Assembly (NCBI GenBank): GCA_035635555.1
Contig: DASQAT010000059.1
Coordinates: forward strand, 1-64,000
Direction of reading: 5' to 3'
Length of the DNA: 64,000 bases
Source of the DNA: Candidatus Dormiibacterota bacterium
GTDB taxonomy: Bacteria; Acidobacteriota; Polarisedimenticolia; Gp22-AA2
The stretch's first letter is position 1, and each line of letters begins with the position of its first letter. Below the pieces are notes generated by a model. It was not told where the DNA came from, made no database searches, and was given only the letters and a program-made list of their open reading frames with translations. Both the position numbers and the translations under genes were made by a program. Shown piece by piece: positions 49,775 through 58,188 of the stretch.

Positions 49775-51378
49775 GGACGCTCGCGGTGGCGGCGGTGCTC
49801 GCGGCTCTTCCGCTGGCGTCTTCGTCCATCGGGAAGGTCGAACGACCGCGGACCACCGTCGACACCGCGTTCCCAGCCCCCGCGGGGAAGACCCTCGCCG
49901 TCGCCGCCGGCGGCGATCTCCAGGAAGCGCTCGACAAGGCGGCTCCGGGGGACGTCATCGTCCTGCAGGCGGGGGCGGTCTACCGGGGACCGTTCACGCT
50001 TCCCAGGAAGGAGGGTTCGGGATGGATCGTCGTCCGGACGGGCGCGGGGAACGGCGATCTGCCGCCCCCCGGGACGCGCGTCGACCCGTCGTTCGCGCGC
50101 ATCATGCCCAGGCTCGAGTCCGCGTCCGGCGCCGTGATCCGGACGGCGCCGGGAGCGCACCACTATCGGTTCGTCGGGCTCGAGATCCGTCCTGCGACCG
50201 GCGCGTTCCTCTACGGTCTCGTCCTTCTCGGGAACGACGAGACCTCGGCGGACAGCCTGCCGCACCACATCGTCGTCGATCGCTGCTATCTCCACGGCGA
50301 TCCTCGCAAAGGGACCCGGCGGGGGATCGCCCTCAACTCCAGCGACACGGCCGTCATCGATTCCTGGCTCGCCGACTTCAAGGAGCCCGGGGCCGATTCG
50401 CAGGCGATCGCGGGCTGGAACGGCCCCGGTCCGTTCAGGATCGTCAACAACCATCTCGAGGGAGCGGGGGAGAACATCATCTTCGGGGGGTCGCCCCCCT
50501 CCATCCCCGGTCTGGTCCCCTCCGACATCGAAGTGCGCGACAACCACCTGTACAAGCCGCCGGCCTGGAAGGCGGACGATCCGTCGTTCGAGGGGACGCA
50601 TTGGTCGGTCAAGAACATCTTCGAGCTGAAAAACGCCCGGCGCGTCCTGGTCGAGCACAACGTGCTGGAGAACAACTGGGTCGACGGACAGGACGGGTTC
50701 GGAATCCTGTTCACGGTGCGCACCGAGGGGGACAAGGCGCCCTGGGCCGTGGTCCAGGACGTGACCTTCGCGAACAACGTCGTAAGGAACACGACGTCCG
50801 GTGTCAACATCCTCGGGATCGACAACACGTCGCCGGCGCGCGCGGGACGGACCACGCGTCTCGAGATCGCGAACAACCTGTTCATCGACATCGGGTCGCC
50901 CGGCAGGGAAGGGTCGGGGACATTGTTCCAGATCGTCGACGGAGCATCGGGCGTCACGATCGAGCACAACACGGCGTTCCACACCGGCAGCATCATCGCC
51001 GCCGACCTGGCGCCGAGCCCGGGCCTGGTGTTCCGGGACAACATCGTCGAGCACAACACGTACGGAGTCTTCGGCAGCGGCCTGGGCAGCGGCCTGCCGG
51101 CGCTCGAGCACTATTTCCCCGGGTTCGAGTTCCGCAAGAACGTCGTCATCGCGAATCCGGCCCCGCGGCGGTACCCCGCCGATAATTTCTATCCCTCCTC
51201 CATCGCGGGGGTCGGCTTCGTCGACTACGGTCACGGCGACTTTCGGCTCGCCGGGGCCAGCCCGCTCCGCGGCAAGGGCACCCAGGGGACCGACCCGGGT
51301 GCCGACCTCGCTCTCGTCCCCCCGCTCTCCCGGTCCCCGGGGTCCTCGGATCGCAGAGGACCCGCAGTTCCCGGTTGA
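49771..51378 (+). CDS. Secreted right-handed beta-helix protein
   Basis: About 535 residues. GTG start overlapping the dehydrogenase stop; signal peptide in the first 20 residues. LQEALDKAAPGDVIVLQAGAVYRG is the hallmark of NosD/pectate-lyase-like beta-helices; repeated strands such as RIVNNHLEGAGENIIFG, VLVEHNVLENNW and LEIANNLFIDIG follow. Probably a periplasmic or extracellular polysaccharide lyase or epimerase (AlgG/AlgE-like fold) acting on the EPS; no definite catalytic residues named. It closes the main operon. Confidence 0.78.
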   Translation: MRTLAVAAVLAALPLASSSIGKVERPRTTVDTAFPAPAGKTLAVAAGGDLQEALDKAAPGDVIVLQAGAVYRGPFTLPRKEGSGWIVVRTGAGNGDLPPPGTRVDPSFARIMPRLESASGAVIRTAPGAHHYRFVGLEIRPATGAFLYGLVLLGNDETSADSLPHHIVVDRCYLHGDPRKGTRRGIALNSSDTAVIDSWLADFKEPGADSQAIAGWNGPGPFRIVNNHLEGAGENIIFGGSPPSIPGLVPSDIEVRDNHLYKPPAWKADDPSFEGTHWSVKNIFELKNARRVLVEHNVLENNWVDGQDGFGILFTVRTEGDKAPWAVVQDVTFANNVVRNTTSGVNILGIDNTSPARAGRTTRLEIANNLFIDIGSPGREGSGTLFQIVDGASGVTIEHNTAFHTGSIIAADLAPSPGLVFRDNIVEHNTYGVFGSGLGSGLPALEHYFPGFEFRKNVVIANPAPRRYPADNFYPSSIAGVGFVDYGHGDFRLAGASPLRGKGTQGTDPGADLALVPPLSRSPGSSDRRGPAVPG

Positions 51379-51479
51379 TCCGGCAAGGGACCGCGGTACA
51401 TTCCTCTCAGATACCACGCGATTCCTCTGCGGAAACCCGTCTGCCCGTCCGGCCGCGCCCGGACGCACGAGGTGCGACG

Positions 51480-54404
51480 ATGAGGACGACCTTCCTCCTG
51501 CCCGTCGTGGTCGCGGCGGCGCTGCTCTCCCTTCCCGGCCACGCCGAGCCGCTCTTTCCGAACACGCTCTCCGTCGTGGGGATCCGCGGCACGGACGTCG
51601 TCGCCGCCGATTTCAACGCCGACGGCCGGCTGGACTATGCCGTCACCCAGGAGAACACCCTGGCGATCGCGGTGGTGCTGGGCAGCGGCCGCGGCACGTT
51701 CTCGCGGCAGGTCCAGTACGAGGCCTACCCCCTCGACTCGATCGCGGTAGGGGACCTGAACGAGGACGGCCATCCCGACATCGTGAGCGCCGGACCGTCC
51801 AGGCTGATCGTGCTCCCCGGCCGCGGAGACGGCTCCTTCGAGGAGGACCTGGATTTCTTCGCCGGCATTCCGGTGATGGATGTCGCCGTGGCGGACCTCA
51901 ACGGCGACGGCCACCTCGACGTGGCCGGCGCCGCTCAGGGCGGAACCTTCTGTCCGACCTGTCCGGACGTTCCGGGGGATGTCGAGATCTTCCTGGGGCG
52001 CGGCGACGGAACGCTCGGCCCCCGGACCATCATCAAGGAGGGCGATCATCCCGACGCCGTCGCCGTTGCCGACCTGAACGGCGACGGCCGGGCCGATCTG
52101 ATCGCCGGCAACTCGTCCTCGAACGACGTGTCGATCTTCCTCGGCGACGGCCACGGGGCCTTCGCACCGGAGATCCGGATTGCGACCGGCCCGTCGCCGG
52201 CAGCCCTCGCGGTGCGCGACCTGGACGGCGACGCCCGGCCCGACCTGGCGGTCGCCGATCGCGGCGCCGGACCGGACTTCGCCGGTGATGTCACGCTGCT
52301 TCGCGGCCTGGGGGACGGGACCTTTGCCCCGATGGGGCGGATCGGAGTGGAGGGGGCCGTCCTGGACATGACTCTCGGAGACTTCGACGCCGACGCCATC
52401 CCGGATCTGGCCCTCGTGGTCGGGGGCACGGACATCGCGCTGCTCAACGGGCACGGAGACGGCACGTTCGGGCCGGAGAGGAGGTTCGTCGCCACGGGCG
52501 GCACCATCCGGATCGCGGCGGCCGATTTCAACGGGAACGGGCGGGACGACGTCGTCATGACCGGCACCCCCCGGCAGGACGTGTTCGGACCGGACATGGG
52601 ACTCCTCCTCGACCCCGAGGGTGCGACGTTCGGAGCGCGCTCCCGGTTCACCGCCGGTCGCGTCCGCTCCGCCGTCTCCGGGGATTTCGACGGTGACGGC
52701 CGCGCCGACCTGGCGGTGGCGAACGGCGGCGTGTTCACCTGCCAGCCGATCTGCGGCAACACTCCCGGAGACGTGTCGATCCTCCTGGGCGCGGGGGACG
52801 GGACGCTCGCCGCCGGTTCCGCGGGCTCCGTGGGGACCGATCCGTCGTCCCTGGTGCGGGCCGATCTCGACAACGATGGCAGCACCGACCTGGCGATGGC
52901 CAACGAAGGCTCGGACGACCTGTCGATCCTCTTCGGGAGAGGGGACGGCACGTTCGCGGAGACACGCCTGCCCGCCGGGGCCGTGCCGGTGTCCCTGGCC
53001 GCGGTCGATCTCAACGGCGACGGTGCAATCGATCTGGCCGTGGCCGACCGGGGCCGGCCCGGCGCGGCACCGGGAGGAGTCTCCCTCCTGTTCGGCGGCG
53101 GGAACGGCTCGTTCACGGCGGCGGCGCCGCTCTTCGCGGGCGCGGCGCCGTCCGCGGTCGCCGCTGGCGATTTCGACGGAGACGGGCGGCCGGATCTGGC
53201 GGTGGGGGAGAGCCAGGATCAGGAGTTCTGGGTCTTTCTCGGCAACGGCGACGGTACTTTCCGGCCGCCGGTCCGTTCGCCCGGTTTCCCGCCTTCGGCC
53301 AGCGTCGCCGTGGGGGACTTCAACACCGACCCGAAGGAGGATCTGGCGGTGTTCACGCCATTCGACGACATCTTCATCTTCTACAGCCGCGCGAACGGCG
53401 CCCTGTCTGCCCCGACGATCCTGCACTGGTACGACGGGACGTTCGTATCCCCTCCTCCCGGCGGAACGGCGGCGACGGCGCCGGTGCTCGCGGCGCCCTC
53501 GCCCGTGGGTCTTTCGGGAATCGTCGCCGACCTGAACGGGGACGGCCGGGACGACGTCGCGTCGGTGCTGCCCGACAAGGGCCGGCTTCAGGTGTTCCTG
53601 AACCGGGGCGGCGGCTCGTTCCTGTTCCGCGGCCCCTTCCTGACCGGGGACACTCCCACGGCGCTCGCCTCGGCCGACTTCAACGGGGATGGGCTCGGCG
53701 ATCTCGCCGCGGCGCTCGCCTCGGGGAGCGGCTCCGTCCTGCTCAACAGCGGCTCGACGGACGCCGACGGGGACGGCGTCACCGATCTGGGCGACAGCTG
53801 CCCGGACCTGGCGAACACCGATCAGCACGATACCGACCACGACGGCCTGGGGGACGCCTGCGACGACTGCCCGACCGTGGCCGATCCGCTCCAGGCCGAC
53901 CTCGACCACGACGGACTGGGGGATGCCTGCGACAACTGCCACATCCTTGTGAACCAGGATCAGGACGATTTCGACGGCGACGGGGTGGGGGACGTGTGCG
54001 ACAACTGCATCGGCAAGACGAACCCGGGCCAGGAGGACTGCGACCACGACGGCATCGGCGACGCCTGCGACCCGTTCTCGTTCTGCAACGGCTTCCCCGG
54101 CGAGGAGAAGGTGATCGATATCTTCATCAGCACCTCGAGCGATCTCGGCAAGGGGTCCGGGACCGTCACCTGGGGCACGTCGATCGAGACCGACCTCGTC
54201 GGCTTCAACGTGATCCTCTACGACACGCAGGGGAACAGGATCCAGCTGAACACGGTGAGGATCCCGTGCGAGCAGTGCATCACGGGTGGGACCGCCACGT
54301 ACGCCTTCCCCGTTCCGAAGCACAAGAGCGGGCGGAACGTGTTCATCGAAATGCTCCGGAGGGGCTTCCCGACCCAGGTCTTCGGTCCGGCGGTGAAGCG
54401 CTGA
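51480..54404 (+). CDS. Secreted FG-GAP/VCBS and thrombospondin type 3 repeat protein
   Basis: About 974 residues. Signal peptide to GHAEP; about a dozen FG-GAP/VCBS repeats of the form DFNxDGxxDLAV (residues about 25-760) that should fold as beta-propellers with Ca2+ loops; then thrombospondin-3-like Ca2+ repeats (DADGDGVTDLGDSCPD, DTDHDGLGDACDDCP, DLDHDGLGDACDNCH, DFDGDGVGDVCDNC; about 760-870); then a C-terminal beta-domain with no recognised sorting signal. Likely a surface or secreted adhesin-like protein. ATG chosen for the adjacent signal peptide. Confidence 0.82.
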   Translation: MRTTFLLPVVVAAALLSLPGHAEPLFPNTLSVVGIRGTDVVAADFNADGRLDYAVTQENTLAIAVVLGSGRGTFSRQVQYEAYPLDSIAVGDLNEDGHPDIVSAGPSRLIVLPGRGDGSFEEDLDFFAGIPVMDVAVADLNGDGHLDVAGAAQGGTFCPTCPDVPGDVEIFLGRGDGTLGPRTIIKEGDHPDAVAVADLNGDGRADLIAGNSSSNDVSIFLGDGHGAFAPEIRIATGPSPAALAVRDLDGDARPDLAVADRGAGPDFAGDVTLLRGLGDGTFAPMGRIGVEGAVLDMTLGDFDADAIPDLALVVGGTDIALLNGHGDGTFGPERRFVATGGTIRIAAADFNGNGRDDVVMTGTPRQDVFGPDMGLLLDPEGATFGARSRFTAGRVRSAVSGDFDGDGRADLAVANGGVFTCQPICGNTPGDVSILLGAGDGTLAAGSAGSVGTDPSSLVRADLDNDGSTDLAMANEGSDDLSILFGRGDGTFAETRLPAGAVPVSLAAVDLNGDGAIDLAVADRGRPGAAPGGVSLLFGGGNGSFTAAAPLFAGAAPSAVAAGDFDGDGRPDLAVGESQDQEFWVFLGNGDGTFRPPVRSPGFPPSASVAVGDFNTDPKEDLAVFTPFDDIFIFYSRANGALSAPTILHWYDGTFVSPPPGGTAATAPVLAAPSPVGLSGIVADLNGDGRDDVASVLPDKGRLQVFLNRGGGSFLFRGPFLTGDTPTALASADFNGDGLGDLAAALASGSGSVLLNSGSTDADGDGVTDLGDSCPDLANTDQHDTDHDGLGDACDDCPTVADPLQADLDHDGLGDACDNCHILVNQDQDDFDGDGVGDVCDNCIGKTNPGQEDCDHDGIGDACDPFSFCNGFPGEEKVIDIFISTSSDLGKGSGTVTWGTSIETDLVGFNVILYDTQGNRIQLNTVRIPCEQCITGGTATYAFPVPKHKSGRNVFIEMLRRGFPTQVFGPAVKR

Positions 54405-54414
54405 GCACGTTCCT

Positions 54415-56163
54415 CTACTCCAGGCCCGCGACGACCACGCCGCGGGGCGCTCGCACCCGGTAGACGAGGTCAATCTCCCTTTTGGCACCCTTCGGGACCG
54501 GGACCTTCCAGGTCAGGATGCCAGGCTCGTTCGGGTCGCTCGCGGCGCCGACGGTCGTCGTCTCGTCGTCCAGGGCGATCTCGATCCGCTCGTCGTCCGA
54601 CACGGGGATGCGGTCCTTCACCTCGATGACGCCGTCGCGGCCGAGATGGTTCTCGAGGGTGGTGACGAAACGATAGGCGACTTCATCGTCCTTGCCATGC
54701 CGCTCCACTCTCTTCTGGATCTGCTTCCTCTCAGCCTTCAGGCGATCGTCGGTACCGAACGACAGGGCGAACTCCTCGCCCGCCGCGCGCCCCACCGTGA
54801 CCGAGCTGCCGACGAGGTCGCTCCCCACGAAGTGCTGCACCTTGCCCTGGAGGATCGGCACGTCTCCCGGCAGCTTGACCGTCGCGACCAGGAAGACTCC
54901 CGGGACGATTTGCGGCACGGCTCGGTGCTCGATTTTCGCCTGCATCTCGCGTGTCGCGATCAGGTGCTTGTGCGGCTGCCCGTCGCTCGGGATGTCCAGC
55001 GGGCCGGGCAGGATGAATGTGACCGCCGCCTCGTGGCGGTCGGCGCTGGCGAGGGCGAACTGGATTGGAAGGGTTTTCGCCTCGTCCGCCAGGGTGGCCA
55101 CATCGGTGTCGCGCGCACCGTGGATGACAGGATTGCCGTCCGTATCGACATCGGCGACGCCGGGCGCCAGCCTCAGGACGTCCTGATGGTTCCTTCCAAG
55201 GATCGGCAAACTGTCGATGTACTCGCTGTTGAATGAAGTCAGGGTCGAAACGACCCGCTGCGGCAGGGTAAGGTTGAGCGACGCCAGCGCGGGCAGGTCG
55301 ATTCCGGCGGACGGTTGCGTCGTGGCCAGGGTGACGGCGACTTCCTTCCAGTCTTCACCCGTGGTCTGGAAGACCTGCGCCTGCCAGGAAATTTTCACCT
55401 CTTCTGTGGCCGGGTCGAGGCGTGCGTCGTAGAGCGGCTGCCACGTGGCGCCCGTGGCGAGGTAGGAGGCTCGCAAAGCCAGGTCACCTCCCCGGGGTGC
55501 CGAGACCATGACGGCGGCGGTCCAGCGCTGGATTCCCCCCTGGGAGACCATCTGTGACTGCTTGCCCCGCGCCACCTCGAGCCTCTGACCCAGGTCTCGC
55601 TGCTTCGTATCCAGGGAACGCTCCTCCAGCGACAACGCGTCGAGCCGTGATGAGAAGAAGTCGAACGCCTTCTGCCACGATTCGACGGCGAAGCCTCTTG
55701 TCAGGACGTCCTTGGACGATCCTTGACCGCCCGACGCCTTGAGACCACCCAGGAACTCGCGCAGCGCGGCGATCGATTGCCGGCGGTCGTTGACCAGGGA
55801 CATCTGGTGGTTGAGATCGTCCAGCTCACGCTCGACCTGCCGGTACTCAGGCGTCAGGCTCGGCTGGCGGAACTCCCTCTGCACCTCGACTCCGCCGATC
55901 TCGATTCCCGCGGAACCGGTGCCGTTGACGCGCACTGAGTCGGGATCGGCGACCGAGGGGAGGCCGCTCAGGATGATCCTGTGGCTGCCCGGCGGCAGGG
56001 TCAGGCGGGTCTCGCGCGTGACCAGGGCGGCCTGGCGGTACACGGTCACCTCGACGACGCGCGATTCGGGGGTGAACTCGGCGGCTAACGTGGCGCCGGT
56101 GAACGGCGCGGCGGCGGACAGCAGCAGAAGCAGGACGACCGGTCTCATCACAAGCATGGGCAC
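54415..56163 (-). CDS. MuiA/DUF4139-family protein with a TonB plug-like insertion
   Basis: 582 residues. Signal peptide (about 1-27), DUF4140-like N-domain (VVEVTVYRQAALVTRETRLTLPPGSHRI), a coiled coil (about 110-200) and the DUF4139 region (WTAAVMVSAPRGGDLALRASYLATGATWQPLYDARL onward). Between about residues 303 and 352, just after WKEVAVTLATTQPSA and its LP-strand, lies a segment (VSTLTSFNSEY, DSLPILGRNHQDVLRLAPGV, NPVIHGARDTDV) that looks like the plug of acidobacterial Oar-like TonB receptors. Family function is poorly known; in some enterics a homologue was linked to mucoidy. Confidence 0.82.
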   Translation of the reverse strand: MPMLVMRPVVLLLLLSAAAPFTGATLAAEFTPESRVVEVTVYRQAALVTRETRLTLPPGSHRIILSGLPSVADPDSVRVNGTGSAGIEIGGVEVQREFRQPSLTPEYRQVERELDDLNHQMSLVNDRRQSIAALREFLGGLKASGGQGSSKDVLTRGFAVESWQKAFDFFSSRLDALSLEERSLDTKQRDLGQRLEVARGKQSQMVSQGGIQRWTAAVMVSAPRGGDLALRASYLATGATWQPLYDARLDPATEEVKISWQAQVFQTTGEDWKEVAVTLATTQPSAGIDLPALASLNLTLPQRVVSTLTSFNSEYIDSLPILGRNHQDVLRLAPGVADVDTDGNPVIHGARDTDVATLADEAKTLPIQFALASADRHEAAVTFILPGPLDIPSDGQPHKHLIATREMQAKIEHRAVPQIVPGVFLVATVKLPGDVPILQGKVQHFVGSDLVGSSVTVGRAAGEEFALSFGTDDRLKAERKQIQKRVERHGKDDEVAYRFVTTLENHLGRDGVIEVKDRIPVSDDERIEIALDDETTTVGAASDPNEPGILTWKVPVPKGAKREIDLVYRVRAPRGVVVAGLE

Positions 56164-56179: not shown

Positions 56180-57992
56180 TCACTTGTCGGTCAGTTCCTC
56201 GATATCGAGATCGATGACTTCGTCGGTCTCCCCGCCCTGGACCCGCGGCGCCCGGCGGAACCGATCGAGCACCGGATGTCCCCTGTACAGGGGCGCCAGG
56301 TCGGCGACGATCTCGTAGATCTCCCCGTCCAGGATCGTCTCGTTCAGGCCGCAGCTCCGCGCCAGAAGCAGGACCCTGTCGAAGTCGGCCGGGTCGATCG
56401 TGATGGCGACACCGATCACCTCGTCCCCCGGCTCGATCACCTCCAGGAGCCCGGCGTCCATCAGCCCCTGCGCCACGTCCGACTCCACGTCGTTCACCGG
56501 CAGGTCGAATTCGCGTCGAATGACCATGATCCTCTCCTTCTTTGCATCTTGAGATGCGGGTGCTCGTCCCGGAGAGTCAATGAAGCGCAGGGGGACCCAG
56601 CAGTCGTTCTCGTCGATCCTGGCCCACGATTCGTTGTCCCGCTCGAAGTGGTCCTTGACCTCCGTCTCCGTTCCCGCGGGCAGCCGGCTGAACTTCGCGG
56701 GATCACCGGCGACATCCGGGAATTCCCAGCAGCGCAGCGTGAGCATGCCGGGCGGCGGAGCAAGGAGGCTCTTCTCCGGCTCATCCTCCACGAGGATGAC
56801 GTCGGTGTCCCGCCCGCGGCCGCTGCCGGCCGCCGGCTCCGAGTCGGCCGGTGACTCCTCGCGGGGCCGGCCCAGGTACATCTCCAGCCAGCCGAGCTCA
56901 CGGGAGCGACTGTCATCGGGACCGAATTCAAGACCGGCCAGCTCGGCCAGGACGGCGGGGTCGTCCAGGTCACGGAGGGTGGCCACGGCAGCCGACTGCG
57001 TCGGAGCGTTCTCCTGGGTCGGGGGCTCCCGCAGGATCTGCAGCGCGACGCGGATGCGAAGCGAAGGATCGACTCCTTTCGAATCGCCGAGGGATTCGAG
57101 GGCGGTGGCGCGAACGTAGGAATCACCGCGGGAGGTGGCCAGCTCATAGATCCGTGCCGCGGCCGCCGGATCGTCGAAGTGCCCCAGAATCCCGGCGGCG
57201 TGCCGCTGGAAATCGGCGTGGGGCGAACGGCTCGCCTCGAGGGCGGCATCGAGTGCGTCGCGGGAATCGGGCCAGCGCGCCAGAGCGTCGAGGGCCATGA
57301 GGCCGGCATTCGAGCGGGAGGCGCGGGCGGATCAGGAATGGGACGACCTCGGGGTCGCCGATGAGGGTGAGGGCCCGGATGGCTGAGGTGGCGAGAGACG
57401 CATCCTTCCCCCGGGCTAGATCGAGGAACGCCTCCGTGTCATCCCGGGAACCGTGCCGCACCAGCGCGATCATCAGATTCGCCCTGACCCAGGGGCGATC
57501 TTCGTGCCGCCAGGCGTATTCCATCTCCGGCAGCGCCTCGAGATCGGTGTGCTCGCTGAACCAGTGAATGGCGGAGGATCGAAGATTGGGCGACCGGCTC
57601 TTCAGAGCATCAAGGAATAGAGGGGCGAGGATCTCGTCGTCATGATCCGCCAGCTCGTTCAGCAGACGATAGGTGATGAAGTCGTCGGTCTCTGTCCGGA
57701 TGAGCGACCGCAACGACTCGAGGGTCCGCCGAGCGTCCCGGTCCGAATTGCCGGCATCCGTGGCGAAGAGCGGCTCGAGGTCGAAGTAGGCGCTCTCCGC
57801 GACCGCCCGCTTTTCGGCCGGGGTGCCGGTCCACAGGATTCGAAGGGCCTCGTCGACCGGGACCCAGGAATCCATGCGGTCGGCAGGCGTCGAATCCCCG
57901 AGGCAGAGGGACGCGAGGACGGCAGGGAGGAGCAGGACGACGATCGTCGCGATTCCGGAGACTTGTCTGTGGGAGGAAGGGTGGACGCGCAT
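56180..57992 (-). pseudogene. Secreted HEAT-repeat protein, interrupted by a frameshift
   Basis: Upstream part: ATG at 57992 with GAGG spacing, signal-like helix (VSGIATIVVLLLPAVLASLCLG) and HEAT repeats to GDPEVVPFLIRP. At about 57320 the frame changes: the other frame reads ARASRSNAGLMALDALARWPD without loss and continues to 56180. The join falls in a GC-rich run, so one base is probably missing or extra. The downstream part adds more HEAT repeats, an SH3-like segment (about WEFPDVAGDPAKF) and an acidic tail. No enzyme motif. Could be an intact gene with a sequence error. It reads leftward, 16 bp from the MuiA-like gene, so the two may form an operon. Confidence 0.75.
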
Positions 57993-58188
57993 CGAAGACC
58001 TCACGGATCCGGCGAAGTACACGCTCTTCAAGAATCGTACGCCTCGATGCCGCGACCTTCAGGGAAATGCGAAGCGGGGCGCGGGGGAAGTGCGGCGCCC
58101 CATGCGGGCGGGAATCCGCAGGCGCGGACTCGAGCGGAGGCGGTCGACTCGGCTGGCGGCTACCGGTCCGGAATGGGATTGTCCGGCG

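Follow-up and report, generated by a model that had tools for sequence, protein, structure and literature searches.

Receptors of the Oar type are built from an N-terminal NTE domain (PF13620), a TonB box, a plug (PF07715) and a beta-barrel. In the SusC/RagA receptors (TIGR04056), the motif VDEVVV of the SusC protein BT1763 serves as the TonB box; when it is deleted or mutated, the transporter becomes non-functional, and the motif is required for growth on levan (PMC7782687). Receptor parts have also been described outside of receptors, namely in a non-receptor envelope protein that bears an NTE-like carboxypeptidase domain and for which a TonB-like link was suggested, while YfbK-like vWA proteins anchored in the inner membrane have been considered as force-transducer candidates (PMC12204202). 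The protein reported here is distinct from this NTE-bearing envelope protein, the description of which includes no plug half.

The window, i.e. the whole stretch of 64,000 nucleotides analysed here, stems from the draft genome (59 contigs) of a soil acidobacterium and encodes a member of the MuiA family (TIGR02231) that carries a piece of such a receptor. The relevant features are the following:

54415..56163, minus strand: gene of the MuiA/DUF4139 protein (582 aa, GTG start)
56080..56163, minus strand: Sec-type signal peptide, residues 1-28 (a hydrophobic stretch, then ATLAAE; read by eye)
55750..56049, minus strand: DUF4140 domain, residues 39-138 (Pfam PF13600, 80 bits)
54442..55476, minus strand: DUF4139 domain, residues 230-574, interrupted by the loop (Pfam PF13598, 171 bits)
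55030..55281, minus strand: variable loop between strands 272-280 and 380-384, residues 295-378 (pLDDT below 50)
55075..55254, minus strand: half-plug segment, residues about 304-363, homologous to the first half of Oar-type plugs
55156..55215, minus strand: plug motif DSLPILGRNHQDVLRLAPGV, residues 317-336 (receptor counterparts LPILGRNYQDVLTLAPGV)
55099..55134, minus strand: plug motif NPVIHGARDTDV, residues 344-355 (receptor counterparts NPxIHGxRDTDV)

Apart from the content of its loop, the protein is an ordinary MuiA-family member. It has the same domains in the same order (PF13600 and PF13598), a whole-protein TIGR02231 score of 303.4 bits compared to a curated cut-off of 112.6, a signal peptide (helix 8-18 in the AlphaFold2 model mc90f63595c7d) and a coiled coil between DUF4140 and DUF4139 (helices 105-146 and 160-209 in the same model). 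Since the signal peptide lacks a lipobox Cys, the protein is probably soluble in the periplasm. What sets it apart from the family is that the loop between two DUF4139 strands is a receptor half-plug. No PDB chain matched the protein by sequence, and a fold search with its model returned weak matches of low TM only (OST subunit, AP2 mu), from which nothing was concluded. A second, weaker DUF4139 match in the same genome (G000:C35:66160-67068, 43.7 bits) apparently belongs to another subfamily. The convergent neighbour (window 51375-54404, plus strand) encodes 11 FG-GAP_3 repeats and a thrombospondin type 3 repeat, and on the other side (window 56180-58031, minus strand) two HEAT-repeat ORFs (57144-58031 and 56180-57298) overlap in different frames and have the appearance of a single gene that is frameshifted near 57.3 kb. 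No Ton genes were found among the four adjacent ORFs scanned.

An earlier note on this DNA had read positions 55107-55256, which correspond to residues 303-352, as a plug-like segment transplanted from an acidobacterial Oar-type receptor. This proved to be correct, and the similarity extends further, up to residue 363 or so (55075). A class-specific plug profile built from 68 receptor rows gives the window loop 86.9 bits, whereas shuffling of 136 DUF4139 loops (13,600 shuffles in total) yielded no more than 14.3 bits, so that an ordinary loop resembling a plug by chance can be ruled out. Three further genes in this genome match the segment at 67-71% (E 4e-23 to 5e-24), with 71-75% identity over its core of 55 residues and 72-75% DNA identity over 142-154 nt; these are a receptor on contig C58, a receptor N-terminus reaching the end of contig C33, and a VIT-vWA gene on contig C14. 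Homology to acidobacterial Oar-type plugs and a receptor origin are supported, and the transplant is confirmed. What is present is only the first half of a plug, as the match starts past the putative TonB-box strand of the receptor and stops near the strand LVDGV. In contrast to the Oar-type receptors, with which it shares this first plug half, the window protein contains no second plug half, barrel or NTE according to the plug alignment, Pfam and NCBIfam. More specifically, neither PF13620 nor PF13715 (CarboxypepD_reg) matched in the Pfam scan, no family of 22-stranded beta-barrels matched in Pfam or NCBIfam, and the model shows the DUF4140/DUF4139 core only. Pfam Plug (PF07715) gave no match either, probably because the segment is a mere half of a divergent plug. 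A recognisable TonB box is likewise missing, and no box of the SusC type was found in the window loop; we know of no experimental definition of the TonB box in acidobacterial receptors.

The same note had placed the segment as an insertion between two beta-strands and had considered that it might instead be a normal loop present in all members. The flanking strands are there (272-280 and 380-384), but a loop at this position occurs in every full-length DUF4139 protein compared, and it is long and variable, ranging from 37 to 274 residues among 136 distinct loops excised between conserved flanks. Together with the position in the AlphaFold2 model, this indicates that the half-plug fills or replaces an ordinary loop. 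The loop is thus normal, but its sequence is receptor-derived, and the plug sequence is not shared by all of the DUF4139 members compared. The DUF4139 core is modelled with high confidence, and the pLDDT below 50 of residues 295-378 says little about the fold of the half-plug, since only one other half-plug row was contained in the AlphaFold2 alignment. In a second model, that of a Saprospiraceae protein (L108), the NTE region of the loop appears as strands of intermediate confidence, with block means mostly of 58-77, which contributes little.

A close MuiA protein is present in 11 of 41 genomes of the class. In searching the contigs, a scan with a single protein gave no match and a broad alignment offered no usable conserved stretch, while an alignment of three rows worked. 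The window protein is not unique, since plug pieces also occur in other MuiA proteins, within the class as well as in Bacteroidota, and in two vWA families. Within the class they were found in G271 (Acidobacteria bacterium KW1-S11_103, L006, on a contig shared with L070; 77.1 bits) and in G119 (L007/L057; 50.5 bits). In the closest relatives the piece is lost or degraded: G223 retains a vestige (13.7 bits), the closest intact relative, G137 (57% identical), at most a doubtful trace (DYRDALTLADG, 3.0 bits), and the same-genus copy in G208 (L009/L116, contig C108) is broken by frameshifts and lacks the loop region. Another MuiA copy (L005/L115, G169:C46) is also broken by frameshifts; in both copies, these may reflect decay or draft errors. 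In a tree of 75 plug segments, based on an alignment of only 72 columns, the window piece falls among the plugs of its own genus (98/93, starred), the G119 piece groups with two receptors of its own genome (100/97, starred), and the three class-level MuiA pieces stand at three separate places. As a single clade of the three is disfavoured by the tree but not rejected by the AU test (p 0.089), we refrain from postulating independent captures for the class. The pattern would fit repeated capture or, alternatively, a single capture followed by conversion by resident receptors.

Beyond the class, receptor-type parts, labelled partly by loop length and pattern, fill this loop in 28 of 50 Bacteroidota, 9 of 43 Acidobacteriota and the single Ignavibacteria sequence, compared to none of 42 loops from other phyla (Alphaproteobacteria, Omnitrophota, Chloroflexi, Verrucomicrobia and others); these fractions do not represent population estimates, because the loops were mostly picked best-scoring first. 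To explain their distribution, at least 18 gains or losses are needed on a quick tree built from the DUF4139 core. The parts are biased towards the receptor N-terminus, as among 35 selected loops CarboxypepD_reg models matched 20, TIGR04056 (SusC/RagA) 21 and Pfam Plug 3. An LxEVVV-like box occurs in 21 of 50 Bacteroidota loops, some of them closely related and one (L134) with the pattern inside its plug, versus 1.0 expected by shuffling and 0 of 42 in loops of other phyla. SusC-type NTE, LxEVVV box and plug pieces were seen in the loops of L134, L131, L190, L108, L139, L140, L203 and others, in combinations that range from NTE, box and plug together (L190) to the plug alone (L134). These DUF4139 proteins share N-terminal parts with the SusC/RagA receptors and differ from them in having no barrels.

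Half-plugs are also found in vWA proteins of the class. They occupy the C-terminal part of VIT-vWA proteins, namely L118 of the window genome (G000:C14:32392-34944), L287, L288 and L289. The gene of L118 and the receptor on contig C33 (L117) share 94% identity over 565 nt, with no difference in the last ~140. Within this nearly identical receptor sequence, contigs C14 and C33 break off at one and the same position, which represents an assembly break at a repeat, and as a consequence of this identity a continuation of L118 into a barrel is not readable. A YfbK-type vWA protein (L234:25-3144, from a one-contig genome) combines an N-terminus resembling an inner-membrane anchor, a linker, CarboxypepD_reg/NTE, a half-plug and the vWA part, a layout similar to that of the force-transducer candidates mentioned above, which are tied to the MuiA finding solely via the shared half-plug. 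L294 (L294:1878-2750) looks by inspection like a second carrier of this type, its gene being cut by the contig end. In addition, DUF4139 and VIT-vWA proteins (L012, L027, L287) contain GGVPGGVIGGVVGG repeats, which lie in loops or linkers. Repeats of this type are present in acidobacterial TonB proteins, too.

We read these data as receptor modules having probably been captured repeatedly into a permissive loop. For the window protein, a piece of a receptor gene coding for the first plug half would have been copied from a receptor of the host lineage into the MuiA loop, and in Acidobacteriota and Bacteroidota this loop would represent a recurrent acceptor of receptor N-terminal modules (NTE, TonB box, plug). 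What the captured pieces have in common appears to be that they stem from the part of the receptor facing the periplasm and TonB. Since these modules are the ones contacted by TonB and other periplasmic partners, a MuiA protein carrying them could be a periplasmic receptor mimic that the Ton machinery holds in place or pulls. From our point of view, the most probable role of the modules would be to dock MuiA to this machinery, meaning that MuiA loops may bind TonB or a receptor-related partner. This reading would be strongest for the box-bearing Bacteroidota loops and weakest for the window protein with its half-plug only, a segment that may be what is left of a longer module. To the explanation as a whole, i.e. 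capture into the MuiA loop plus receptor mimicry towards the Ton machinery, we assign a probability of roughly 0.45.

The main rival is that the pieces are neutral debris which the numerous receptor genes shed by recombination into a tolerant loop, where they decay without function, a serious possibility although not the one that we favour. Both the 136-loop comparison and the AlphaFold2 model depict the loop as unconstrained, the copies in G137 and G223 are decayed, the plug pieces of the class differ in extent, and in the plug tree the branch of the window half-plug (0.42) exceeds most receptor branches (median 0.069). The main weak point of this explanation is that the barrel, as the larger part of a receptor, should supply most random pieces, whereas no Pfam barrel family matched among the 35 selected loops. 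It would further not be expected from debris that the smallest loops retain exactly the TonB box, which in L139, L140, L193 and L203 is the sole receptor part left. Against decay also speak the conserved plug positions kept in the pieces of G271 (p 0.002) and G119 (p 0.017), with a non-significant p of 0.28 for the window piece alone, as well as a dN/dS of 0.19 between window and receptors (0.13 from receptor to receptor), a purifying signal that is not datable to the time after capture, the post-capture share of the path not being separable.

Following an idea of the earlier note, the half-plug could dock inside or under the barrel of a TonB receptor, with MuiA guarding or modulating the transporter. 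The segment does track the receptor plugs of its own lineage, as expected if it fitted their barrels, and retains plug core motifs while a recognisable TonB box is absent. We nevertheless consider this unlikely, given that half a plug would hardly fill a barrel and that in the Bacteroidota loops the plug is retained less often than the box. Even less probable, in our opinion, is that the receptor parts act as a tag by which MuiA and the vWA proteins are recognised by a partner of the Oar-type transporters, e.g. in secretion, an analogy that draws on the requirement of Oar for PopC secretion in Myxococcus (PMC6434023) and would be in line with a tag common to several surface or periplasmic protein families. 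An artefact of assembly or annotation that fused two genes could come to mind for a draft of 59 contigs, but it is hardly conceivable, and an assembly chimera was rejected, as the reading frame is uninterrupted, the DNA of the segment deviates by 25-28% from its matches elsewhere in the genome, and plug pieces recur at this position in related genomes that were assembled separately.

Taking the docking to the Ton machinery one step further, MuiA, VIT-vWA and YfbK-type vWA proteins of Acidobacteriota and Bacteroidota might all be non-receptor Ton clients that repeatedly gained modules by which TonB could grip a soluble or inner-membrane-anchored protein. We regard this generalisation as rather doubtful. 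If true, TonB would have targets beyond the outer-membrane transporters and receptor N-terminal modules would act as mobile adaptor domains. The DUF4139 family itself is widespread and essentially unstudied, with incidental mentions only in a literature search, and the fact that numerous DUF4139 proteins of Bacteroidota carry a TonB box of the SusC type provides a first concrete candidate partner for it.
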